Positions 5,591 through 22,891 of a DNA stretch of 30,889 bases are shown in pieces. The notes beneath the pieces are model-generated. The model was not told the origin of the DNA, ran no database searches, and saw only the letters and a program-made list of their open reading frames with translations. The first letter of the stretch is position 1. Every line of letters starts with the position of its first letter. The stretch spans positions 1-30,889 of the IMG/VR virus record IMGVR_UViG_3300000116_004747. One strand, written 5' to 3'. The position numbers and the translations under genes were made by a program. Source of the stretch: a virus.

Positions 5591-5615
5591 CACTCCTCTC
5601 GGGGAGTGTTTTTTT
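5591..5615 (+). terminator. Intrinsic terminator before the tail tube gene
   Basis: Hairpin CACTCC (5591-5596) / GGAGTG (5603-5608) with a six-base loop, followed by seven T residues (5609-5615). It ends transcription of the Gly/Trp-rich gene. Its last T is also the first base of the late promoter box at 5615-5622. Confidence 0.85.
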
Positions 5616-5622
5616 ATAAATA
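5615..5622 (+). promoter_or_regulatory. T4-type late promoter box upstream of the tail tube gene
   Basis: Exact TATAAATA, starting on the last T of the preceding terminator and lying 17 bases before the ATG at 5640, with the ribosome site AAGGAGAA between. A promoter directly after a terminator is a sensible reset of the late transcript, so this is the most convincing late box in the window. Confidence 0.8.
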
Positions 5623-5639: not shown

Positions 5640-6176
5640 ATGACAACTGAACTTCCAGGTCTGTCTTCCAAAGTCTCACAAGACATCACAGTAAGGCAAC
5701 CTTCAAACACAAACTATATTCAGAACACAGGGTTCTTCTTTAACATTCAGAGACTCCCCTCTGTTCAATTCTTTTGTCAGGAAGTTAATCTACCAGCAAT
5801 CAACTTTGATGCAATCATTCAACCCACTCGTTTCATCAACGTGAAACACCCAGCAGGAAAACTAAACTTTGAAAACCTTGAAGTCACTTTCATTGTAGAC
5901 GAAGATATGGCAAACTGGAGAGAAGTGTTTGAATGGTTGAAGACTATAGTTCCCATCGAAGATGCAGACGATCAGATCGCAGCAGACGATCACTACTGCG
6001 ATGCTACACTCACCCTACTCAACAGTGCAATGAATGAGAACCTCAGAGTTACATTCAAGAACTGCTTTCCTACTGCACTCTCAGGACTTCAGTTCATCAC
6101 CACACCAGGCGAGACTGAACCACAAACCGCAACCATGACTTTGACATTTGACACATACGAAATAGAAAAGGTCTAA
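5640..6176 (+). CDS. 19: Tail tube protein, gp19-like
   Basis: 178 residues, similar in length to T4 gp19 (163). It contains the pattern usual for T4-type tube proteins: an N-terminal region with NTGFFFNIQRLPSVQFFCQE (about 30-49) and LPAINFDAI, then the conserved core LNFENLEVTFIVDEDMANW and the helix WREVFEWLKTI, ending in a beta strand MTLTFDTYEIEKV. Such proteins stack as hexameric rings to form the inner tube of contractile tails. It could also be a related tube-fold protein such as the gp54 baseplate-tube initiator, but the length favours the tube itself. It has its own late promoter and ribosome site. Confidence 0.8.
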   Translation: MTTELPGLSSKVSQDITVRQPSNTNYIQNTGFFFNIQRLPSVQFFCQEVNLPAINFDAIIQPTRFINVKHPAGKLNFENLEVTFIVDEDMANWREVFEWLKTIVPIEDADDQIAADDHYCDATLTLLNSAMNENLRVTFKNCFPTALSGLQFITTPGETEPQTATMTLTFDTYEIEKV

Positions 6177-6528: not shown

Positions 6529-6556
6529 TTGACTTCTAGTTTATTTGTGATATACT
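6529..6556 (+). promoter_or_regulatory. Sigma70-type promoter for uvsY (leaderless geometry)
   Basis: TTGACT (6529-6534), a 16-base spacer, and TATACT (6551-6556) with a TG extension at 6548-6549. Only six bases separate the -10 box from the ATG at 6563, so the A of ATG falls at the expected +1. No Shine-Dalgarno is present. The same spacing occurs before gene 55 and before the gene at 16446. Confidence 0.85.
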
Positions 6557-6562
6557 TAGTAC

Positions 6563-6997
6563 ATGGATATAAGCAACATTAAACAATTAGTGGCAGAAGA
6601 TATGCCTATCGACGATACCGAACTTGATATCGAATCGATGGCTATTCCTCAACTTCACAGCAAGTACCTCAACATCTATATGGACGAGAAACTTCTCCTC
6701 CAGAAAATCAACAGCGACTACTATAGGCTGAAGAAGATGAAGTGGGAATACTATACAGGGAAACTAGATCAGGATCAACTTGATGAATATGGCTGGGAAC
6801 CATTCCAACTAAAGATTCTCAAGCAAGACATTGATCTGTACATGGACTCTGACGAGGATCTACAGAAACTCATTAATAAGCAAACATACCAGAAAGAAAA
6901 AATTAACTATCTGGATGCCATTCTTAAGTCTGTAAACAACAGACAATGGAATATCAAAGGTGCCATTGAGTGGAGAAAGTTCATCAATGGACAGTGA
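6563..6997 (+). CDS. uvsY: UvsY-like recombination mediator protein
   Basis: 144 residues (T4 UvsY is 137). UvsY loads the recombinase UvsX onto single-stranded DNA covered by gp32. The sequence has the family character: a small, very charged helical protein with LHSKYLNIYMDEKLLLQKI, YYRLKKMKWEYYTGKLD and the C-terminal RQWNIKGAIEWRKFINGQ, which closely recalls the conserved UvsY end. It is placed near uvsW, as in related phages. It has a dedicated host-type promoter whose start site would coincide with the initiation codon. Confidence 0.92.
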   Translation: MDISNIKQLVAEDMPIDDTELDIESMAIPQLHSKYLNIYMDEKLLLQKINSDYYRLKKMKWEYYTGKLDQDQLDEYGWEPFQLKILKQDIDLYMDSDEDLQKLINKQTYQKEKINYLDAILKSVNNRQWNIKGAIEWRKFINGQ

Positions 6998-7514
6998 GGT
7001 ATCCTCATTATTAGAGAATGACACTATGTGTCGTATCTACCTGAGACATGCTTATCAGTATGCACAAGCATATAGCAAAGATCCGTCTACTCAACTCGGA
7101 GCAATACTTGTTCAGAAGGGCTCAGGAGTCATAGGATGGGGCGTGAACGCTTTGCCCAGTGGTATTTCCGATTCGGTGGACAAGTGGACTCCCCCACAGA
7201 AATACCAGTATATTGAACATGCAGAACGGAATGTAATATACAAATGTGCTGAACGGGGTATCTGTACAACGGGACTTGTGATGTATTGTCCTTGGTTTGC
7301 ATGTACCGATTGTGCAAGAGCCATCATACAATCAAAGATATCAGCAGTCGTTGGACATAAGCAGATGTATGATCTCGTCAACGAGAGATGGAGCGAATCT
7401 ATCAAAGTTGGTATGGAGATGATTAAAGAGGCGGGAATACAGATAAAACTGTGGGACGGAAAAATAGGCAATAATATATCCGTTCGAGTAAATAAAAAGG
7501 ATTTTAGTCCATAA
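6987..7514 (+). CDS. cd: Deoxycytidylate (dCMP) deaminase
   Basis: 175 residues from ATG 6987, which has GGAGA at 6972-6976 as ribosome site and overlaps the uvsY end by 11 bases; a frame extension to GTG 6960 is less likely. The zinc deaminase signature is complete: IEHAERNVIY (His78, Glu80) and CPWFACTDCARAII (Cys106, Cys109). The substrate region at 25-60 (YSKDPSTQLGAILV, GWGVNALPSG) is typical of dCMP deaminases, which make dUMP for thymidylate synthesis. T4 cd is of similar size. Its insertion next to uvsY places nucleotide supply among recombination genes. Confidence 0.92.
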   Translation: MDSEVSSLLENDTMCRIYLRHAYQYAQAYSKDPSTQLGAILVQKGSGVIGWGVNALPSGISDSVDKWTPPQKYQYIEHAERNVIYKCAERGICTTGLVMYCPWFACTDCARAIIQSKISAVVGHKQMYDLVNERWSESIKVGMEMIKEAGIQIKLWDGKIGNNISVRVNKKDFSP

Positions 7515-7522
7515 ATATTGTA

Positions 7523-9034
7523 ATGAGCGAACTTGTCATTACAAACATCGACGCGGTTAACATTCATATTGAATGTGACAAAAGCACCGCTAAAGAACTT
7601 TCGGATTTCTTTACATTCAAAGTTCCCGGTCACGAGTATATGCCTGCCTTTCGCAACAAACTCTGGGACGGTCAGATTAAACTATACAACATATACAAGC
7701 AAACCATATACACTGGGTTGTATGATTACGTCGTTAAATTTGCCAGAGATAGAAACTACAAGATAATAGAACCAGAACCAATCATATCCAAGGGTTCGGT
7801 AAAAGAAGAACACATTCAAAAGTTTATAAACGAACACCTGAAACCAGTTGCAGGTGGTAGTTCTATTGAAGCACACCAACATCAAATCGAAGCGGTCACC
7901 CACGCTATCAATAATGATCGGTGTCTTCTTCTATCTCCGACAGGATCTGGTAAGAGTCTAATCATTTATGCACTGGTTCGGTATTACCTTGACATAATTC
8001 CACCAGACAAAAAAGTTCTGATCATTGTTCCTACTACATCTCTAGTTCGTCAGATGCTTTCTGATTTTGCTGAGTACTCATCTAAAGACAAGTGGAAAGC
8101 AGAGAAAAACTGCCATTGTGTCTTTGCAGGTAAAGATAAATTGTCCAGCAAGAGAGTGATCATCTCCACATGGCAAAGCATCTACAAACTTGGGTACGAA
8201 TACTTCTCTAACTTCCATGCTGCATTTGGTGATGAGTGTCACTTGTTTAAGTCAAAGTCACTTACCACTCTGATGACAAAATTGCTAGAGTGTCCATACA
8301 GAATAGGCACGACAGGAACCCTAGACGATTCACTTACACATAAACTTGTAATTGAAGGTTTGTTTGGTAGAGTACAACATGTCACCACTACCAAGAAATT
8401 GATGAACAAGGATCTTCTGTCTAAACTAAAAATCGATTGTCTTCTTCTTAACTACCCAGAGAAGGTACGTCAAGAAAATAAAAAGATGAAGTACCAAGAC
8501 GAAATCGACTGGATCGTAACGAACGAAAATAGAAACAATTTCATATCCGATCTCAGTGTAAATCTAAAAGGAAATACACTTGTCCTGTTTCAGTATGTGG
8601 AGAAGCATGGTAAGCCTCTCTTTGAATCTATACAGAAAAAAGCAGGAGACGGCAGAGATGTATTTTTTGTTTTTGGTGGAACCGATGTCGAACTTAGAGA
8701 AGAGATCAGGAAGATCACAGAAAAGAAAGACAATGCAATCATTGTCGCTTCTTACGGAACCTTCAGTACTGGTATCTCAATTAGGCGACTTCATAACATC
8801 ATATTCGCATCACCGTCGAAGAGTAGGATTAGAATCCTACAAAGCATAGGTAGACAGTTGCGTAAATCCGAACATAAAGATGTGGCAAAACTATATGACA
8901 TTGCAGATGATATACACTGGAAGTCGTACAAGAACCACACATTGAACCACTTTGAGAGAAGATTAAAAATTTATCAATCAGAGGGATTTGAATTTAAACA
9001 AATCTCCCTACATATAAAAGGGAATCAATTATGA
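7523..9034 (+). CDS. uvsW: UvsW-like DNA/RNA helicase
   Basis: 503 residues, matching T4 UvsW in length. It is a superfamily 2 helicase that unwinds R-loops and branched DNA and drives the switch from origin- to recombination-dependent replication. Visible motifs are Walker A SPTGSGKS (138-145), the DExH box DECH (237-240), motif III-like GTTGTL, and the motif VI region QSIGRQLRKSEH. The N-terminal DNA-binding part includes PAFRNKLWDGQIKLYN, a UvsW hallmark. Six bases before the ATG is CATAAATATTGTA, which may be a variant late box (see findings). The gene overlaps the next start by four bases. Confidence 0.95.
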   Translation: MSELVITNIDAVNIHIECDKSTAKELSDFFTFKVPGHEYMPAFRNKLWDGQIKLYNIYKQTIYTGLYDYVVKFARDRNYKIIEPEPIISKGSVKEEHIQKFINEHLKPVAGGSSIEAHQHQIEAVTHAINNDRCLLLSPTGSGKSLIIYALVRYYLDIIPPDKKVLIIVPTTSLVRQMLSDFAEYSSKDKWKAEKNCHCVFAGKDKLSSKRVIISTWQSIYKLGYEYFSNFHAAFGDECHLFKSKSLTTLMTKLLECPYRIGTTGTLDDSLTHKLVIEGLFGRVQHVTTTKKLMNKDLLSKLKIDCLLLNYPEKVRQENKKMKYQDEIDWIVTNENRNNFISDLSVNLKGNTLVLFQYVEKHGKPLFESIQKKAGDGRDVFFVFGGTDVELREEIRKITEKKDNAIIVASYGTFSTGISIRRLHNIIFASPSKSRIRILQSIGRQLRKSEHKDVAKLYDIADDIHWKSYKNHTLNHFERRLKIYQSEGFEFKQISLHIKGNQL

Positions 9035-9621
9035 ATGATAAGACATTATATCGAATCATAAATCTTTCTAGCGGAGACAATCTAATTGCACAAGTCACCG
9101 AATCAGCGACAAAAGCAATTACTGTTTACAGACCTTTTCAAATGAAGGTAATTACCCTTCTTGATGAAGGAGGACCGCTTTCAGTGTCGTTCAGAAAAGA
9201 GGCATTGATATTCAGAAACTGGTTAGAATTTTCTACAGATCAAAAAGTTACAATTCCTAGAGACAAAGTAATTTCGATTACTCATCCTAATGACATGGTA
9301 AGTAGCCTGTATGATCAGGAAAAAGAAAAAGAAGACAATCCAAAATTTATGGACGATCTTCTAGAGAAATTAAAAAAGCATGATCTCAGAGAAGATTTAG
9401 AAGATATACTAGATGAAGCAGAAGAAGAATTATCAATCTCTCTTGAAGACATAGATATAGATGAAGTAATAGAAAATGTTACAGTAGAAATTGATCCTGA
9501 AGATATACGAGATATTGTTCATAAGATGCTAGAAGATTCTAAAAACATTCGTCCAATCGAACATGAACAAGAAGATATCGATATCGATTCAGATCAAGAT
9601 GATGATATGTTTGGTTGGTAA
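9031..9621 (+). CDS. Acidic protein with a small beta-rich N-terminus, uvsW-gene 55 interval
   Basis: 196 residues, starting within the uvsW stop (ATGA). The first 90 residues (RIINLSSGDNLIAQVTE, ITVYRPFQMKVI, SFRKEALIFRNWLEFS, VTIPRDKVISITHP) look like an Sm/LSm-type small beta barrel. The remaining 100 residues are very acidic and helical (EDILDEAEEELSISLEDIDI and similar). The protein ends DQDDDMFGW. This recalls the hydrophobic-after-acidic tails by which T4-group proteins bind the sliding clamp, such as the DNA polymerase C-terminus. Its position before the late sigma gene would suit a transcription role, but no homology to gp33 can be shown by eye. Confidence 0.82.
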   Translation: MNDKTLYRIINLSSGDNLIAQVTESATKAITVYRPFQMKVITLLDEGGPLSVSFRKEALIFRNWLEFSTDQKVTIPRDKVISITHPNDMVSSLYDQEKEKEDNPKFMDDLLEKLKKHDLREDLEDILDEAEEELSISLEDIDIDEVIENVTVEIDPEDIRDIVHKMLEDSKNIRPIEHEQEDIDIDSDQDDDMFGW

Positions 9622-9688
9622 TTAATACTATTCTATTAACCGGACAAAGTAATTATAACACTATTTTAAAAGTCGTCAAGAAAAACAT

Positions 9689-9716
9689 TTGACTTTCGTG
9701 AAAAAAAAGGTATAAT
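9689..9716 (+). promoter_or_regulatory. Sigma70-type promoter for gene 55 (leaderless geometry)
   Basis: TTGACT (9689-9694), a 16-base spacer, and a perfect TATAAT (9711-9716). Six bases later comes the ATG at 9723, so +1 would be the A of the start codon. The preceding gap of about 70 bases after the upstream stop holds no other recognisable element. Host-type transcription of the late sigma factor gene fits the regulatory order early or middle, then late. Confidence 0.88.
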
Positions 9717-9722
9717 ATAGTC

Positions 9723-10328
9723 ATGAGCAAAAAAGACAAAAAAGATACATCTACGCATTATGTGAACAACAAAGAATTCTTTGAGGCAATGAAAGAATGG
9801 AAAATAGTTGTTCGAGAATACGAAGAGGCGGATGATGGTAAACCCCCAGTGACTGACTATATTGGGGAGTGTTTTCTTAAGATTGCAGAGCATCTTTCAT
9901 ATAGGCCTAACTTCATCAATTATCCATATAGAGAAGAGATGGTAGGAGATGGGATTGAAAACTGTTTAATGTACGCTACCAATTTCGATCCAGATAAGTC
10001 AGACAACCCATTCTCGTATTTTACTCAGATAATTTATTATGCTTTCCTTCGGCGAATACAGAAGGAAAAGAAACAAGACTATGTTAAATATAGGTGCTTT
10101 GAAATTATGGATCAAAACGGAGTAATTCCCGAAGATTTCAAAAGACAAATACAAGATAAGTTCGATACGGCACAAAATCCATATGCTAGTATGTTGAAAC
10201 TTACTGATAATGATATAGATAATTTTACTCCTAAGAAGAAGAAGAAAAAGAGTAAAAAGAAAACCACTACCAATTTAGATTCTGTTCTTGAAGAGGAACC
10301 CCCAAGTGAAGATAGCAGTAATAAATGA
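9723..10328 (+). CDS. 55: Late-transcription sigma factor, gp55-like
   Basis: 201 residues (T4 gp55 is 185). This protein directs host RNA polymerase to TATAAATA late promoters. The central region carries the sigma region 2-like segment: YIGECFLKIAEHLSYRPNF, YREEMVGDGIENCLMYATNF and NPFSYFTQIIYYAFLRRIQ (about 83-120). The C-terminus has a very Lys-rich stretch (KKKKKKSKKK, about 172-181) and an acidic end (LEEEPPSEDSSNK) without an obvious hydrophobic clamp-binding motif. The gene has its own host-type promoter. Its 3' end overlaps gene 47 by 23 bases, and the Glu-Glu-coding bases double as the gene 47 ribosome site. Confidence 0.93.
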   Translation: MSKKDKKDTSTHYVNNKEFFEAMKEWKIVVREYEEADDGKPPVTDYIGECFLKIAEHLSYRPNFINYPYREEMVGDGIENCLMYATNFDPDKSDNPFSYFTQIIYYAFLRRIQKEKKQDYVKYRCFEIMDQNGVIPEDFKRQIQDKFDTAQNPYASMLKLTDNDIDNFTPKKKKKKSKKKTTTNLDSVLEEEPPSEDSSNK

Positions 10329-11358
10329 TACGCACTTCGGTGCAAGAGGCGACTCTCAACTTTTCTTTGATCACTTTATGAAATTCTTTGATGATGTTTT
10401 CTTTCCGTACGTAAATGAAAATAATATCAAGACAGTGATTCATGCCGGTGATCTTATGGACAGACGAAAGTTTGTTAACTTTAGTATACTGAATCAAGTT
10501 CGTTCTAGAATCATGGACAGACTAAAGGCTGAAGGAATACAAATGCACTGTATCCTTGGTAACCATGATGTCTATTATAGAAATACAAATGCAATAAATT
10601 CAATACGAGAACTTTTCAATGATGATTTGGTTCTATATGAAGAACCTACCGTAGTAAATTTTGACGGTTTAGATATTGCACTTCTCCCGTGGGTAAGCAA
10701 AGACACCGTGGATCAAAGTGTTGAATTTATTAAGACCGCACCAGCACCAATACTATTCGGACACCTAGAACTTGAAGGTTATGAAGTAATGCGAGGTGTT
10801 AATTTTAATGGTGGCGGAATCGATCCCGCAATTTTTAATAAATACGAAAAGGTATTCTCTGGACACTTCCATTGTCGCCAAGAAAAAGGCAACATCTATT
10901 ACATGGGAACCCAGTATCAAATCACCTTCTCTGATCTAAACGAAAATAAAGGCTTTCATGTGTTTGATACAGACACCCGAGAAATGGAATTCATCGAAAA
11001 CCCATATAAGATGTTCCACACTCTACAATATGATGACTCCGATGGTCCAATAGAGGCGGATAGTTTGAATAAACTGGATTACCTAAAGGATTCATATGTC
11101 AAACTGTTCGTGGAAAATAAGAAACACCCATACAGTTTCGACCGATATATGGATAAGTTGTATGAGGTAGGCGTTTCTAAGATTACCGTCGTTGAAGATT
11201 TTGAAGAATCTTCATGGACTAAGAAAGAAATACTTGACTTAGCGCAAGATACTGTTACAATTATAAATAACGAAATAGATTCTATCGAAGAGGTTGAAGA
11301 CAAAGATAAAATGAAACGCCTGATTAAAGATTTATATATGGAAAGTCTGTCCCTATGA
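10306..11358 (+). CDS. 47: Recombination nuclease subunit, gp47-like (Mre11/SbcD family)
   Basis: 350 residues from GTG 10306, chosen because AGAGGA at 10292-10297 lies 8 bases upstream and the family begins directly with the first metal motif; a TTG at 10288 in frame is less suitable. Calcineurin-like phosphoesterase motifs are intact: NDTHFG (Asp8, His10), AGDLMDRR (Asp49), LGNHDVY (Asn86-Asp88), FGHLELEGYE and FSGHFHCRQ. With gp46 it forms the phage Mre11-Rad50-type complex that resects DNA ends for recombination-dependent replication. T4 gp47 is 339 residues. Confidence 0.95.
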   Translation: MKIAVINDTHFGARGDSQLFFDHFMKFFDDVFFPYVNENNIKTVIHAGDLMDRRKFVNFSILNQVRSRIMDRLKAEGIQMHCILGNHDVYYRNTNAINSIRELFNDDLVLYEEPTVVNFDGLDIALLPWVSKDTVDQSVEFIKTAPAPILFGHLELEGYEVMRGVNFNGGGIDPAIFNKYEKVFSGHFHCRQEKGNIYYMGTQYQITFSDLNENKGFHVFDTDTREMEFIENPYKMFHTLQYDDSDGPIEADSLNKLDYLKDSYVKLFVENKKHPYSFDRYMDKLYEVGVSKITVVEDFEESSWTKKEILDLAQDTVTIINNEIDSIEEVEDKDKMKRLIKDLYMESLSL

Positions 11359-11822
11359 ACATTTTTGTACTTGATGAAAACCCAGTGATCGCCGCAAACT
11401 ATGCATGTGACAAACATGTAGTAAAAATGATTCTAGAATCTGCACAGATGTTGTGTGCTGTTCAACCAGAAGGTACTGCACCATACAAGCGTTCATTTTA
11501 TAACCACCCATGTACCAAGTGGGTTCGTGCATCCACAGAAAACTATGAATGGTTGATTGATCATGCAATGGGGCTGTGTTCAGAATATACAAGACGATAT
11601 GATAAAGTACATAAGTCCCAAAAAGTAATTGAGTGGTGTAATGCAAACCGACCAGAACTACCAACTGGAAGTCTAACAGAACATCCTAAGTGTATGCCTG
11701 ATCATTGTAAGACTGAATCTGTCGTAGAATCATATAGGCAGTACTACGTCATAGAAAAGTCATACTTCGCACAATGGAAAGATGGGAATATTCCAGAGTG
11801 GTATTTGGAGAAAACGGTTTGA
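11355..11822 (+). CDS. Small protein resembling phage-annotated pyrimidine-dimer glycosylase family
   Basis: 155 residues, start overlapping the gene 47 stop (ATGA). The sequence MNIFVLDENPVIAANYACDK and following HVVKMILESAQMLC is a pattern I associate with small proteins of marine T4-like phages that are often labelled pyrimidine dimer DNA glycosylase; it is not obviously similar to T4 endonuclease V (DenV). Several conserved His, Cys and Trp residues (NHPCTKWVRAS, ENYEWLIDHAM) point to a compact enzyme or binding domain. Lying between genes 47 and 46, a DNA repair role is plausible. Function is uncertain. Its end overlaps the gene 46 start by four bases. Confidence 0.7.
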   Translation: MNIFVLDENPVIAANYACDKHVVKMILESAQMLCAVQPEGTAPYKRSFYNHPCTKWVRASTENYEWLIDHAMGLCSEYTRRYDKVHKSQKVIEWCNANRPELPTGSLTEHPKCMPDHCKTESVVESYRQYYVIEKSYFAQWKDGNIPEWYLEKTV

Positions 11823-13531
11823 TAATATTCCAAAAACTAAGTTGGAAGAATTTCCTATCAACAGGAAATCACAAAACTACATTGGATTTTACCAGACATA
11901 ATAACACTCTGGTTTCTGGTGATAATGGAGCCGGTAAATCTACGATGTTGGACGCACTTACCTTTGCATTGTTTGGTAAGTCTTTTCGTGGTATTAAGAT
12001 TCCGCAACTCATCAATACAATCAACGAGAAAGAATGTGAAGTAGAAATTACATTCAAAGTGGGAAGTGATGAGTATAGAGTATTCCGTAGCATTAAACCA
12101 AAGAAGTTTGAGATATACAAAAATGGAGATCTCTTAGATCAAGACTCTAAGACTAGGGATTATCAAAAGATACTAGAAGAACAAATTCTTAAGATGACAT
12201 ACAAGTCTTTTTGTCAGGTAGTAATTCTTGGTTCTTCTAATTACGTCCCCTTCATGCAACTCAGCACAACAGACAGAAGACTTGTTGTAGAAAACCTATT
12301 AGACATTGATGTTTTTTCTGTGATGAACACTCTTGTTCGTGCGAGACTTCAGATGACAAAGGAATATGTCAAGGACATTGATACAAAAATAGAGATAGCA
12401 AAGAGCAAGGTAGACGAAAAGCAAAAGTTAATCAACACTCTAGAAAAGAAATCAAGCGACTCTGTAGAAAAATACGAACTTGAAATTGAAGAATCAAAGA
12501 AGCAGATAGAAGATTTAGAATCAGAAATTAAGGAACTGCAATCTAAAGTTGTAAAACTTAGGCAGAAAATTAAAGATGTAGATGTGGTTCCTAAATCTCT
12601 AATAAAGATGGAAACGCTGGAAGGACAATTGAAGTCCAAGATAAAGGGTATAACAAAAAATGCCAAGTTCTATGAAGACAACGATACATGTCCCTCATGC
12701 AAACAAAATATCCAAGAACACCACAAGAAAAATGTGTGGGAAGAGATGCTACAAGAACAAGAAGAAATTCAAAACGCAATCCTTGATCTCAACTCTAAAG
12801 TTAAAGACACAGAAAAGAGATTAGGTGAAATCAACTCTGTTGTTGAGGATATTAATAAACTAGAAAAAGGCATATCACATAAGCAGAACCAAATCAGCGT
12901 ATCTTCACAGTACACAAGAAAGATTCAAAACGATATTGATTCTATTCTTACTGAAGGTTCTGGGGTACAAGAATCAAAGGACGAATTGCAGCAATTACTA
13001 GGAGAGGGTAAGGTTCATGTTGAGAGAAGAAAAGAACTCATAGAAGACAAACATTACCTTGCAATTGCATCTACCTTGTTAAAGGACAGTGGTATAAAAT
13101 CAAAGATCATCAAGCACTACTTACCAATCATGAATAAGTTGATTAATAAGTATCTTGCGGATATGGATTTCTTCTGTCAATTCAATCTAGATGAAAACTT
13201 TAACGAGACAATCAAGAGTCGTCATCGTGACGAGTTCTCATACCACAGTTTCAGTGAAGGTGAGCGATTGCGTATCGACCTATCTCTTCTTCTTGCATGG
13301 CGTGAAATTGCACGACTCAAGAATAGTGTAAACTGTAACCTGTTGATTCTTGATGAAGTATTTGATTCAAGTCTCGACGCAGTTGGTACTGAAGAGTTTT
13401 TGAAACTCTTAACATCATTCGGAAGTCGTGCTAATATATTTGTAATTAGTCACAAGTCTGATACGATGACGGATAAGTTTCAGAATCATATCGTCTTCCA
13501 GAAGAAAAATAACTTCAGTGGGATAAAGTGA
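11819..13531 (+). CDS. 46: Recombination nuclease ATPase subunit, gp46-like (Rad50/SbcC family)
   Basis: 570 residues from TTG 11819, chosen because GGAGAA at 11807-11812 sits six bases upstream and translation then reads MIIFQKLSWKNFLSTG, the usual family start; an in-frame ATG at 11774 would add 15 unrelated residues. T4 gp46 is 560. Walker A is GDNGAGKS (34-41). Coiled-coil arms surround a zinc hook CPSC (291-294). The ABC signature is FSEGERLRIDLSLLL, and Walker B is NLLILDEVFDSSLD. It works with gp47 in end resection. Confidence 0.95.
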   Translation: MIIFQKLSWKNFLSTGNHKTTLDFTRHNNTLVSGDNGAGKSTMLDALTFALFGKSFRGIKIPQLINTINEKECEVEITFKVGSDEYRVFRSIKPKKFEIYKNGDLLDQDSKTRDYQKILEEQILKMTYKSFCQVVILGSSNYVPFMQLSTTDRRLVVENLLDIDVFSVMNTLVRARLQMTKEYVKDIDTKIEIAKSKVDEKQKLINTLEKKSSDSVEKYELEIEESKKQIEDLESEIKELQSKVVKLRQKIKDVDVVPKSLIKMETLEGQLKSKIKGITKNAKFYEDNDTCPSCKQNIQEHHKKNVWEEMLQEQEEIQNAILDLNSKVKDTEKRLGEINSVVEDINKLEKGISHKQNQISVSSQYTRKIQNDIDSILTEGSGVQESKDELQQLLGEGKVHVERRKELIEDKHYLAIASTLLKDSGIKSKIIKHYLPIMNKLINKYLADMDFFCQFNLDENFNETIKSRHRDEFSYHSFSEGERLRIDLSLLLAWREIARLKNSVNCNLLILDEVFDSSLDAVGTEEFLKLLTSFGSRANIFVISHKSDTMTDKFQNHIVFQKKNNFSGIK

Positions 13532-13532
13532 T

Positions 13533-13940
13533 ATGTGTTTATTTGATAATGATGTAAAAGAAGAAACAAAAGAATGTACCAAGTGTAAAAAAGAATTACC
13601 TAAGTCAAACTTTGGTCCTTCTAGCGGGGGAGTTTATCTGCGGGGTGAGTGTAGGAAGTGCGCCCGTTCAGCAACAAAACTCGTCAAAGAACTAAGAGAG
13701 AAACAAAGCAAACCAAAAGAAACACACATCTGTCCCATATGCGAAAAAAATGTAACAGAGATACAAGGTAACTCGTGGTGCTTGGATCATGATCACAAAA
13801 CAAAAAAATTCAGAGGTTGGTTGTGTCATAAGTGCAACCGAGCCTTGGGAAACTTTGAAGATAATATTGAATTGCTTAAAAGAGCGATAGAGTATATAAA
13901 GAAAGATCGTAATGACGACACAAATCAAACCTTACTATGA
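13533..13940 (+). CDS. Recombination endonuclease VII-like protein (His-Me finger nuclease)
   Basis: 135 residues, starting two bases after the gene 46 stop. The core CPIC (67-70), CLDHDHKTKKFRGWLCHKC (83-101) and ALGNFEDNIELLKRAIEYI matches the T4 endonuclease VII (gp49) catalytic fold: two CxxC zinc pairs around the DHDH active site. T4 gp49 resolves branched DNA before packaging. A further CxxC pair precedes it (CTKC 15-18, CRKC 40-43), forming an N-terminal zinc ribbon not present in T4 gp49. It may be the gp49 functional counterpart next to gp46/47, or a free-standing nuclease of the same fold that acts as a selfish gene. The end overlaps the next gene by 29 bases. Confidence 0.85.
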   Translation: MCLFDNDVKEETKECTKCKKELPKSNFGPSSGGVYLRGECRKCARSATKLVKELREKQSKPKETHICPICEKNVTEIQGNSWCLDHDHKTKKFRGWLCHKCNRALGNFEDNIELLKRAIEYIKKDRNDDTNQTLL

Positions 13941-15507
13941 ACGCAATGAACATGTGATAAACTCACATATCAATTGCAACTTCGAAGATTTGCTCGATAT
14001 GACACCAGACGAATTTCGTGATTGGGTTATTGAAATGCGAAAGGTCGTAAAGGATGCATGGGATACCTATGGTTGTCCTCCGCGAACTGGAAAGAACGAA
14101 GAAGAGATCGTAGACGCATTCAATAAGATTGCAGAGTACCCTGTACACCAGTTCACACATACCGACGAGTTGTCTGATGTTGATGATGACATAATAATTA
14201 ACAAGTCTCGTATGGCAGTTGAAGTAGATCAATGGTTTTCTAATATGTTCAAGACTAGAATCAACTACACCGAAAAGGACAATGGTTATTCGATTTACGA
14301 CTTGGTTGCAGACGATGAAAAACTAGATCGTGTGGTGAAGGGTGCGATGCGTCACCTTCGTCGTGATTCTTTTTATACTCATGCGTTATCTGCAATTAAG
14401 CATGACAAGAAATATTCAATCGTTGATGTTTCGAGTGGTGATGAGTGGGTGAATGTCTTCTTTGAGAATCCAAAGATATTCAAAGGATATGACTTTCTAC
14501 TTGAGCAAATTAAGATACGAGAAGGCGTAAACTCTGGTTACTTTCAACTCGAACAAGATGATGTTCTGCAACTCACCAAAGAGCAAGTAGAAAGTTGGAG
14601 AGACATGATGTCATATAGACATCACTCTACCTTTGATATCAATGATATGCCAGATGATAAGGTATACGCCATTCGAATCTACAAGACAGGACGAAAGGTT
14701 TTCCCTGCGGGATTTAAATCTTTTCGTATCGGGTACATTCAACCTGCTGTAAACTTCCCACCAATGACTGCTAAATACTTATATGAGAGGTTTACAGATG
14801 ACATCAAAGAACAAGAACGAATCGTTATCTATGATCCATCGAGCGGCTGGGGTGGTAGAATACTTGGTGCTATGGGTATTAGGGATGATCGTAGGATTCA
14901 TTATGTGGGTACTGATCCTAATCCTGACAATCTTCTTGATGATGGTAGTTATAGCAAGTATGAGTCTCTTGCCAATTTTTATAATACCAAGACTTATAGA
15001 GGAAATCCATTCTTTTCCGAAACAAACACGTTTGAGGTTTTTCACGAAGGATCAGAAGTAATACATCTCAACAAGGACTTTCAGAAGTATAAGAACAGTC
15101 TCGACTTGGTGTTTACTTCTCCTCCATACTTTAACCGAGAAGCATACTCCGAAGACGACAACCAGTCGTATAAAAAGTTTAACTCCTACGAATCTTGGAG
15201 GCATGGGTTTTTACGTCCTACTTTAGAAACTTGTGTTGAGTATCTAAAGGAAGAAAGATACCTTCTTTGGAACATTGCAGATCTTCTTGTGGGTGGAAAC
15301 TATCTACCGCTAGAGAAAGACAGCAAAGACATTCTAGAATCTTTGGGTATGGAATATAAGTATACACTAAAGATGGCACTAGAGGGTATGCCTGGAAAGA
15401 ATAGAATTGGTGAAGACGGAAAACCAACTTGTAAAAATTTCTGTCAAGTAGATGGTAAGTATTTAAAGTACGAACCTGTATTTGTATTTTGGAAACCAAA
15501 ACAATGA
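13912..15507 (+). CDS. DNA amino-methyltransferase (N4-cytosine or N6-adenine type)
   Basis: 531 residues, starting inside the preceding nuclease gene. The C-terminal half is a class I methyltransferase: the SAM-binding motif DPSSGWGGRILGA (308-320), acidic strand VGTDPNPDN (332-340), and catalytic motif IV TSPPYFNRE (402-410), in that order. SPPY, rather than DPPY, is commonest in N4-cytosine enzymes but also occurs in N6-adenine ones. The 300-residue N-terminal part is unlike a standard target-recognition domain and has an unknown role. No restriction endonuclease partner is visible, so it is an orphan that may protect phage DNA from host restriction. It ends in an ATGA overlap with the next gene. 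Confidence 0.88.
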   Translation: MTTQIKPYYERNEHVINSHINCNFEDLLDMTPDEFRDWVIEMRKVVKDAWDTYGCPPRTGKNEEEIVDAFNKIAEYPVHQFTHTDELSDVDDDIIINKSRMAVEVDQWFSNMFKTRINYTEKDNGYSIYDLVADDEKLDRVVKGAMRHLRRDSFYTHALSAIKHDKKYSIVDVSSGDEWVNVFFENPKIFKGYDFLLEQIKIREGVNSGYFQLEQDDVLQLTKEQVESWRDMMSYRHHSTFDINDMPDDKVYAIRIYKTGRKVFPAGFKSFRIGYIQPAVNFPPMTAKYLYERFTDDIKEQERIVIYDPSSGWGGRILGAMGIRDDRRIHYVGTDPNPDNLLDDGSYSKYESLANFYNTKTYRGNPFFSETNTFEVFHEGSEVIHLNKDFQKYKNSLDLVFTSPPYFNREAYSEDDNQSYKKFNSYESWRHGFLRPTLETCVEYLKEERYLLWNIADLLVGGNYLPLEKDSKDILESLGMEYKYTLKMALEGMPGKNRIGEDGKPTCKNFCQVDGKYLKYEPVFVFWKPKQ

Positions 15508-16415
15508 ATTGTTTAATTACAGGCGGAGCAGGACATATAGGATCTCACCTCGCTCTTCGTTTACACGAAGAAGGTCACGATGTCGATATCATTGATAATA
15601 TATCGATTGGTAAGAGGGACGCTATAAAGGATCTAACCGATAACGGTTGGGTTGGGAAATATGTAAAAGCAGACATAAAAGATCCTCGAATGGTAGCGTA
15701 TGCATTGCAGCAAAATAAGTACGACATATGTTTTCACTTAGCAGGATATACCGTACCGAACGAATCGACAGAAAATCCAATAGTATACTATGAAAATAAT
15801 CTTTCTTCATTCCCTCAGTTTTTATCTTCTTTAATTTTTCATGGAGTAAAAAGAATAGTAACCTGTCGTTCATCCTGTTACAAATCATGTCCATACGGAA
15901 TGTGTAATGATGTAATACAGAGAATGGTAGAGGATGTTTCTGCGGTTACTCCCGAACTAAAATATTCTTCTTTTCTTCTACCCGAAGTGGTAGGAAATAA
16001 TATTGAGGGAAAGATTGGCGATTATGGTTTTGATAAGAAGAATAAATTAATTCCAAACTGTATGTCTGCATCTGCAAATTTAAAACCCAATGTTACTGTA
16101 AAAAATGGAGCGGATATTTGTCACCTTATTCATGTTGATGATGTCATAGAGGTATTACTGAATGCTTTGACTGATACCGAAAATTGTCACCATGAAATAG
16201 AATGTGGTGTGGTTGCAACAAAAAGAGAAATTGTTGAGTCTTGTATAAAAGTTACCGCCGGTAGATATCCATTCATAGAAGAAGAATATGACGAGGATGT
16301 GGAGTTTATAACTCAAACCAATTCTACTGGCAACAAACAAGCCAGTATAACTTTCCTAGACACAATCACAAAATCAACTTGGAATTGGATAAAGAAAGTT
16401 AAGAATTTACCTTGA
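15504..16415 (+). CDS. GalE-like NAD-dependent epimerase/dehydratase, active-site Lys missing
   Basis: 303 residues from ATG 15504, overlapping the methyltransferase stop. The N-terminal Rossmann fold is intact (ITGGAGHIGSHLALRL, 5-20; DNISIGKRD; FHLAGYTVPNE) and closely follows UDP-sugar 4-epimerases, as does ENPIVYYENNL. The active site is not normal. The usual S-x-S...YxxxK array is compressed to CRSSCYKSCPYGMCND (121-136), so Tyr131 is present but the Lys four residues later is Asn135. The loop between the Ser and Tyr is about 15 residues shorter than in GalE. It may bind a nucleotide sugar without standard catalysis, or use another mechanism. It lies among replication genes, as a sugar-cluster outlier. 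Confidence 0.82.
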   Translation: MNCLITGGAGHIGSHLALRLHEEGHDVDIIDNISIGKRDAIKDLTDNGWVGKYVKADIKDPRMVAYALQQNKYDICFHLAGYTVPNESTENPIVYYENNLSSFPQFLSSLIFHGVKRIVTCRSSCYKSCPYGMCNDVIQRMVEDVSAVTPELKYSSFLLPEVVGNNIEGKIGDYGFDKKNKLIPNCMSASANLKPNVTVKNGADICHLIHVDDVIEVLLNALTDTENCHHEIECGVVATKREIVESCIKVTAGRYPFIEEEYDEDVEFITQTNSTGNKQASITFLDTITKSTWNWIKKVKNLP

Positions 16416-16439
16416 CACATCTAAAATATGTGGTATAAT
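16412..16439 (+). promoter_or_regulatory. Sigma70-type promoter for the gene at 16446 (leaderless geometry)
   Basis: Perfect TTGACA (16412-16417), a 16-base spacer, and perfect TATAAT (16434-16439) with a TG extension at 16431-16432. The ATG at 16446 is six bases downstream, so +1 coincides with the start codon. The -35 box overlaps the stop of the GalE-like gene. No ribosome site is present. Confidence 0.9.
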
Positions 16440-16445
16440 TTATAC

Positions 16446-16946
16446 ATGTCCAAAAAGAAAAAAACCAAGAAGAAGATTTCAAAGACGAGTGTTCGAAAAA
16501 CATGGGAAAACGGCGATAACCCAATTGGGTTGAATCTCATTTCTCCAATGTCATATGAAGATTACATGAAAGCCGGACTTGAGATTATGTCTAAGAGATT
16601 TCAGATTCGAACTTATAAACTAGCAAATGAAGATGATTATCCCGGATTCCTTCGAGGAAGAGATCTTCGTATTCAGGTGTGGTTCGATAAGAAGTACACA
16701 GGTTATGAACTTATAATTGAGGTTCCGTTCTGGTTACAGTCAAACCGTAATAAAGAAGATCGTTTGTATATGAGACAGGCAGCAAATGTGCATCTCAAAA
16801 CTATACATGAACAAGTAGAACAGGCAAAGAAAAAGTTCAACAAGAGTAGTCCCAAGACTACCAAGAAGAAGACTACCAAGAAGAAAAGAACAGTCAAAAT
16901 TGGAACCACACAAAAAGCATTCGAGAATGCAAAGAAAAGCAAATGA
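16446..16946 (+). CDS. Lys-rich basic protein with own promoter, function unknown
   Basis: 166 residues. An in-frame ATG at 16428 lies inside the promoter, so the start at 16446 is preferred. The protein is strongly basic at both ends: MSKKKKTKKKISKTSVRK at the N-terminus and TTKKKTTKKKRTVK in the tail (about 144-157), like histone-type tails that contact nucleic acid. Between them is a globular region of about 100 residues (MSYEDYMKAGLEIMSKRFQI, DLRIQVWFDKKYTGYELIIE, MRQAANVHLKTIHEQVEQAK) of mixed beta and helix. No family is recognised. Its stop overlaps the rnh start, so it is probably the first gene of an rnh-45 transcript. Nucleic-acid binding is inferred from charge only. Confidence 0.83.
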   Translation: MSKKKKTKKKISKTSVRKTWENGDNPIGLNLISPMSYEDYMKAGLEIMSKRFQIRTYKLANEDDYPGFLRGRDLRIQVWFDKKYTGYELIIEVPFWLQSNRNKEDRLYMRQAANVHLKTIHEQVEQAKKKFNKSSPKTTKKKTTKKKRTVKIGTTQKAFENAKKSK

Positions 16947-17801: not shown

Positions 17802-17993
17802 ATGGCAAAGAACAAAAGAAAAAATAAACAGAAAGGTAATCAAAATAGTTTTCATCATGAAGATTATTATGATCTTAGAAATACCACAAAAAGACCTGCG
17901 AAACATAAGCGAGTAAAGGATAAGAAATATCTTAAAGATGCAATTCGAGGAGACATTGATCTAGATTCTTATCACGAATATAATGGTAATTGA
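17802..17993 (+). CDS. Small basic protein between rnh and gene 45, function unknown
   Basis: 63 residues from ATG 17802; an in-frame TTG at 17778 is possible, but it would begin inside rnh. The sequence is very basic and polar (MAKNKRKNKQKGNQNSF; KRPAKHKRVKDKKYLKDAIR), with an acidic Tyr-rich end (DIDLDSYHEYNGN). There is no clear ribosome site, so expression may depend on coupling to rnh, which ends 8 bases earlier. The protein has no hydrophobic core of note and may be disordered. No family is recognised. Confidence 0.65.
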   Translation: MAKNKRKNKQKGNQNSFHHEDYYDLRNTTKRPAKHKRVKDKKYLKDAIRGDIDLDSYHEYNGN

Positions 17994-22483: not shown

Positions 22484-22891
22484 ATGGAGAGAATTGAACT
22501 AAGTATTGATGATTTGGTAGAAGTGGAACTATTTGAAGACGATGACTTTTTAAAGATAAAAGAAACATTGACTCGAATAGGAATCTCTTCCAGAAAAGAA
22601 AAAAAACTATATCAGTCTTGTCATATTTTGCACAAAAGAGGCAAATATTACATTGTTCACTTTAAAGAACTTTTTTCTCTTGATGGTCTCCCTTCTAATT
22701 TTTCCGAAGAAGATATTGCACGAAGGAATACAATTGTTAATCTATTGGACGAATGGGAATTGTGTGAGATTGTCAAACCAGAAAAAACAGAATCTCCTGT
22801 GCTGAATATAAAACAATTAAAGATTTTGAGTCATAAAGAGAAAGAAGACTGGGAATTGTGTCCTAAATATCATATAGGAAAGAAGAGATAA
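22484..22891 (+). CDS. regA: RegA-like translational repressor
   Basis: 135 residues from ATG 22484, seven bases after AAAGGA (22471-22476); the in-frame GTG at 22478 is too close to that site. The protein matches T4 RegA (122 residues) closely: FLKIKETLTRIGISSRKEKK, LYQSCHILHKRGKYYIVHF, EEDIARRNTIVNLLDEWELC and the terminal WELCPKYHIG. RegA binds the initiation regions of many early phage mRNAs and blocks ribosome binding. In T4 it follows gene 62, as here; DNA polymerase does not follow it in this phage. There is a short N-terminal extension (MERIELSIDDLVEVELFE). Confidence 0.95.
   Translation: MERIELSIDDLVEVELFEDDDFLKIKETLTRIGISSRKEKKLYQSCHILHKRGKYYIVHFKELFSLDGLPSNFSEEDIARRNTIVNLLDEWELCEIVKPEKTESPVLNIKQLKILSHKEKEDWELCPKYHIGKKR

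Follow-up and report, generated by a model that had tools for sequence, protein, structure and literature searches.

The window, meaning the whole stretch of DNA analysed here, is the 30,889-base IMG/VR virus record IMGVR_UViG_3300000116_004747, from an uncultivated marine T4-like phage whose similarity to cultured cyanophages is only distant. Three of its genes are each preceded by a sigma70-type promoter that ends close to the start codon:

6529–6556, plus strand: sigma70-type promoter of uvsY (-35 TTGACT at 6529–6534, N16, -10 TATACT at 6551–6556; ATG to 6565), flush to the ATG in 17 relatives
6563–6997, plus strand: uvsY, recombination mediator, predicted leaderless with expected +1 at 6563 (phrog_231, 2.9e-40; Pfam UvsY, 1.7e-31)
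9689–9716, plus strand: sigma70-type promoter of gene 55 (-35 TTGACT at 9689–9694, N16, -10 TATAAT at 9711–9716; ATG to 9725)
9723–10328, plus strand: gene 55, late-transcription sigma factor, predicted leaderless with expected +1 at 9723 (phrog_234, 1.3e-58)
16412–16439, plus strand: sigma70-type promoter of a Lys-rich gene (-35 TTGACA at 16412–16417, N16, -10 TATAAT at 16434–16439, with TG before the -10; ATG to 16448)
16446–16946, plus strand: Lys-rich gene (166 aa), predicted leaderless with expected +1 at 16446; N6 homologues at G007:76986, G005:14076 and in L574; no family

Geometry of the three promoters

A sequence-only reading had proposed that three TTGACW-N16-TATAMT-N6-ATG sites predict leaderless mRNAs. 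Read directly, the window holds all three at precisely the positions claimed, and the 5' ends given for them (6563, 9723 and 16446) are a correct deduction from promoter geometry. At each gene six bases separate the -10 box from the ATG, in line with the roughly 6–7 that would put +1 at the start codon. A search for TTGACW-N15..18-TATAMT-N5..8-ATG returned these three sites only, and widening the gap to N0..30 added no further site in the window. The same pattern had no match in 100 dinucleotide shuffles of the window.

The gene names in that reading were confirmed by phrog_231 and Pfam UvsY for uvsY, which stands after the head and tail genes, and by phrog_234 for gene 55. The third gene, described as an unknown Lys-rich gene, gave no convincing family in profile searches: it had no Pfam match, its match to phrog_22977 was non-significant (E = 0.016), and no relative was found among isolated phages. 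An in-frame ATG at 16428, missed by the earlier reader, lies inside the spacer of its promoter.

Two promoter types of T4 were considered and ruled out for these sites. T4-like late promoters are gp55-dependent TATAAATA boxes that lack a -35, whereas the -10 regions here are TATACTTA, TATAATAT and TATAATTT, each with a full -35. MotA-dependent middle promoters were rejected because all three sites have a TTGACW -35 at N16, with no MotA box replacing it.

The three genes were also said to have no convincing Shine-Dalgarno (SD), in contrast to their neighbours. Their predicted SD pairing is indeed weak (-2.9 to -4.0 kcal/mol, against a median of -5.3 for 29 genes), and any such pairing would fall inside the promoter itself. 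The contrast with neighbours does not hold throughout, as pairing is equally weak for several genes further downstream whose starts overlap or are tightly spaced; SD absence alone is therefore not diagnostic. Nor is the identical N16 spacer a mark of the class, since leadered promoters of the same genomes also have N16 and the relative L574 keeps N6 with N17. By these comparisons the N16 spacer is a lineage-wide habit that lies outside the class definition.

Conservation of the promoter-to-ATG distance in relatives

Exact TTGACW-N15..19-TATAMT sites were counted in nine records, comprising the window and eight relatives. Of the 36 promoters, 18 are followed by an ATG at exactly N6, every other gap being represented 0–3 times, and all 18 N6 ATGs open ORFs of at least 60 aa. 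Of 19 clade cases, 18 have a pyrimidine just before the ATG; the relatives are clustered, so these loci are not independent observations. The 118-kb record G007 carries five leaderless promoters beside five leadered ones. Its leaderless set comprises uvsY, gp55, the Lys-rich gene, a Destabilase-domain protein (Pfam PF05497) and a small acidic ORF, while its leadered genes have identical boxes at gaps of 18–72 bases, most of them with an SD. A clade gene of ~225 aa has gaps of 10, 14 and 18. Together with the N7, N8 and N9 variants found in relatives, it suggests that very short leaders may occur at some loci.

Downstream A-richness and low structure are sometimes linked with leaderless mRNAs. 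As a mark of this class, A-rich or unstructured 5' coding ends were rejected, there being no difference from leadered genes.

At two loci (G007:95554 and G005:29361) the predicted leaderless gene encodes a signal-peptide-like protein. The G007:95554 copy matches the Destabilase family (invertebrate-type lysozyme; Pfam PF05497, E = 1.6e-15), making its product a candidate unusual phage lysozyme.

Close relatives of uvsY on 17 viral contigs have the same promoter flush against the ATG. The expectation that relatives would keep N6 was borne out: with the window included, 16 of 18 uvsY loci show N16/N6, one shows N7 and one N8. In 143 of the 153 locus pairs the sequence from -110 to -40 is unrelated (26% identity), whereas identity in these pairs is 69% over the last 34 bases and 83% over the first 60 of the coding sequence. 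The promoter has thus moved together with uvsY while the upstream neighbour was swapped, which points to the geometry being kept by selection and not by shared surroundings. The uvsY protein aligns with its relatives from residue 1. A more distant uvsY (L101, 54% identical) has similar boxes followed by a leader bearing a TAGGAG Shine-Dalgarno.

Homologues of the Lys-rich gene stand in synteny in G007 (53% identical) and G005 (69%), with another in L574. All three keep N6, with a spacer of 17 in L574; such a promoter is missing from L575, a more distant homologue.

Gene 55 must start at 9723, since the conserved YVNNKE motif is reached at residue 13 and no earlier start is available. Across 86 gp55 loci the promoter gap is 6–9 in 25 and at least 20 in 52, with none at 10–19. 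When the strict leaderless label (N6–N7) was placed on the gp55 protein tree, about eight changes were required, at least five of them forced by well supported branches. On this tree, leaderless gp55 promoters thus appear to have been gained and lost repeatedly, returning to the same distance. In the cultured relatives Syn9, S-SSM7 and Melnitz the gp55 promoter is leadered, with gaps of 23, 26 and 46 and an SD-like motif. An Rfam search of the gp55 intergenic region gave sub-threshold matches only.

Several gp55 loci have arrangements of their own. Seven gap-9 promoters (L060, L065, L066, L067, L080, L081 and L083) carry GAGG immediately 3' of the -10 box, an SD-like motif that may lie outside the transcript. 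In L004 (~1050–1096; G005:6634–6671) the gp55 promoter abuts, at N7, an 11-codon ORF whose TGA overlaps the gp55 ATG (ATGA), which suggests a leaderless small ORF coupled to gp55. Upstream of gene 55 in phage T6 (L580), a TATAAT is followed at exactly N6 by an ATG opening a two-codon ORF (ATG AAT TGA), then by an SD and the gp55 ATG; this arrangement is possibly due to chance.

Gap distribution in viral and bacterial samples

The sole requirement for drawing a viral contig was a consensus promoter with an ATG no more than 30 bases away, this phage playing no part in the choice, and the first ATG opening an ORF of at least 50 aa was scored. Among the 282 distinct promoters, 20 gaps were N6, 12 were N7 and 6 were N8; about one promoter per gap was found at N9–N18, followed by a second hump at N19–N30. 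An SD-like motif was present in 1 of 41 near promoters (N5–N8) versus 69 of 98 far ones. Counting each gap once per contig gave the same result, and a spacer of 17 was commonest in near and far classes alike. The class is therefore not peculiar to this phage, its geometry being the commonest short gap in an unbiased sample.

The same scan of bacterial genomes showed no N6 spike (3 of 63), with 7 near and 42 far promoters. The contrast with the viral 41 and 98 is modest (Fisher p = 0.04), and the bacterial set, largely Clostridia and not host-matched, is a rough control. A pyrimidine precedes the ATG in 16 of the 20 viral N6 cases, compared with 557 of 1143 ORF starts generally (p = 0.006); this excess is as expected if the base is position -1. 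It is not significantly commoner than at leadered promoters (p = 0.20).

Leaderless initiation and its possible role

The claim that transcription starts at the A of the ATG draws on the conserved N6, bimodal gaps, SD loss, the pyrimidine at -1 and the repeated label changes across the tree; it remains a reading of sequence. These are observed properties of the loci, as are the rarity of the geometry by chance and its persistence in swapped surroundings, and the leaderless reading of the three mRNAs is strongly supported by them. We consider it probable that private near-consensus promoters place the transcription start at or near the ATG, yielding leaderless mRNAs with SD-independent initiation; the reason that we favour for the class is gating by the 5' end.

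Each gene has its own near-consensus promoter of the host sigma70 type, from which transcription would start at the A of the ATG or within 1–2 bases of it. In place of SD pairing, translation would begin with ribosomes, probably 70S, recognising the AUG at the 5' terminus. Internal AUGs without an SD are poor translation starts. Such an AUG on a long late read-through transcript would accordingly be translated poorly, and uvsY, gene 55 and the third gene would be made only from their own early or middle promoters. Promoter and gene would form a compact unit (~37 bp plus the ORF), functional wherever recombination places it.

The gating step draws on this general property of SD-less internal AUGs and on late-promoter-like boxes, one of which lies upstream of uvsY:

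5615–5622, plus strand: late-promoter-like box TATAAATA, upstream of a tail-tube-like gene at 5640; late transcripts reading through from this box would cross uvsY

The window contains four TATAAATA boxes against 1.84 expected, each individually weak. No plus-strand terminator-like site was listed by our scan between 5000 and uvsY. Under the gating proposal, UvsY protein would come only from its own promoter, because a late read-through mRNA without an SD should translate poorly.

A broader proposal, which we put forward tentatively and consider doubtful, is that leaderless mRNA is a standard arrangement for early and middle phage genes, accounting for about one quarter of ORF-adjacent consensus sigma70 promoters in viral contigs, and that in T4-like marine phages it gates uvsY and gene 55 off late read-through.

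Alternative explanations

Transcription start-site choice can shift by 1–2 bases. The three mRNAs might therefore have ultra-short, SD-less leaders, with starts 1–4 bases upstream of the ATG, in which case the A of the AUG would not be +1 although the translation mechanism would be nearly identical. Start sites generally vary by a base or two, and relatives show N7, N8 and N9 variants, as this explanation would predict; yet N6 is a sharp mode among the relatives and the unbiased viral promoters alike, and in the clade the A follows a pyrimidine in 18 of 19 cases, as expected for a -1/+1 junction, so that we regard ultra-short leaders as unlikely. Alternatively, the promoters could be real while most protein of the three genes comes from longer upstream transcripts, the short distance having no translational role. 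The genes lie tightly packed on one strand, making upstream transcription likely. Against this, the three genes lack a good SD, the gap is bimodal with N6 surviving upstream swaps, and an irrelevant distance should give gaps of 10–19. We consider such a dependence on longer transcripts very improbable.

A different role for the class is suggested by another gene in the window:

22484–22891, plus strand: regA homologue, translation repressor (phrog_242, 1.2e-57)

On leadered early mRNAs, T4 RegA binds in the area around the start. A leaderless mRNA would lack the upstream half of any RegA site, and with the homologue present the class could serve escape from RegA-type repression, one of two roles raised by the earlier reader, the other being use when host initiation is altered; however, viral contigs drawn regardless of phage group often show this geometry too, so RegA is not needed to account for it, and we give this role little credence. 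The hardest alternative to credit is that the start codons are misassigned and translation begins elsewhere with an SD. The in-frame ATG at 16428 offers one such start for the third gene, but it sits within that gene's own promoter spacer; uvsY matches its relatives from residue 1, and gp55 has no alternative start before YVNNKE. 5'-terminal AUG initiation on leaderless mRNAs remains our preferred reading.

Relation to known systems

Leaderless initiation is an already known way to start translation. Leaderless genes of bacteria are recognised by the -10 box adjoining the ORF (Zheng et al. 2011, PMC3160421; Deinococcus-Thermus, PMC12340547), and the 5'-terminal-AUG route by which leaderless mRNAs are translated is discussed in the latter. 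The likeness is close: a -10 a few bases from the ORF, no SD, +1 at or near the start codon, and the same geometric argument. Here, by contrast, the genes are core replication and late-switch genes of a T4-like phage with a full consensus -35, and they form a minority alongside SD-led genes using the same promoter type.

The leaderless mRNA of phage lambda is that of cI, transcribed from PRM. Lambda was the first leaderless case (PMC3160421) and, as predicted here, a phage mRNA begins at the AUG; it involves a temperate repressor held at a low level, whereas the present promoters are a repeated class on core lytic genes. T4 uvsY likewise has its own promoter, a MotA-dependent middle promoter that also primes the R-loop origin ori(uvsY) (PMC3016281), unlike the full sigma70-type -35 of uvsY in the window. 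In Syn9, S-SSM7 and Melnitz, gene 55 likewise has a sigma70-type promoter to itself, in the same position along the gene order, but those promoters are leadered with an SD-like motif and that of the window is predicted leaderless. A side remark in the AR9 paper, referenced to an E. coli ribosome study, holds that phages often produce leaderless transcripts. Our literature search found no paper linking uvsY with leaderless mRNA. What is new is the set of core T4-like gene examples, the coexistence of two promoter classes in a single genome, the recurrent gain and loss at gp55, and the N6–N8 spike in viral contigs sampled without bias.

If the leaderless reading is right, marine T4-like phages would make their late-switch sigma factor and a recombination mediator from mRNAs that skip SD initiation, a design that, to judge from the unbiased sample, is common in phages. 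It would bear on the annotation of phage start codons and promoters, on the ribosomal state exploited in infection and on the means by which late transcripts are kept free of early genes, and it offers a simple geometric test applicable to any phage transcriptome.

A divergent promoter upstream of gene 55

The region upstream of gene 55 holds a further, near-perfect promoter on the opposite strand:

9652–9679, minus strand: divergent promoter facing away from gene 55 (TTGACG at 9679–9674, N16, TATAAT at 9657–9652)

A strict minus-strand search (TTGACN-N15..18-TAYAMT within 180 bases) of 55 dereplicated gp55 loci, among L004–L083, L570 and L578, found such a promoter in 35, against 0.16 expected by shuffling and at most one in any of 100 shuffled sets. 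The 35 include the cultured isolates S-SSM7 and P-RSM1, and by these comparisons the promoter appears deeply conserved. In the window the divergent RNA is predicted to run antisense to the upstream gene, starting ~25 bases from that gene's 3' end. By analogy with T4 ori(uvsY), the product may be an R-loop replication primer (PMC3016281); alternatively, it may be an antisense RNA.

Elsewhere in the window, the gp45 clamp ORF is listed from 17983, and its phrog_223 match starts at residue 18. The ATG at 17983 is probably not the true gp45 start, because the family match begins ~17 codons downstream.
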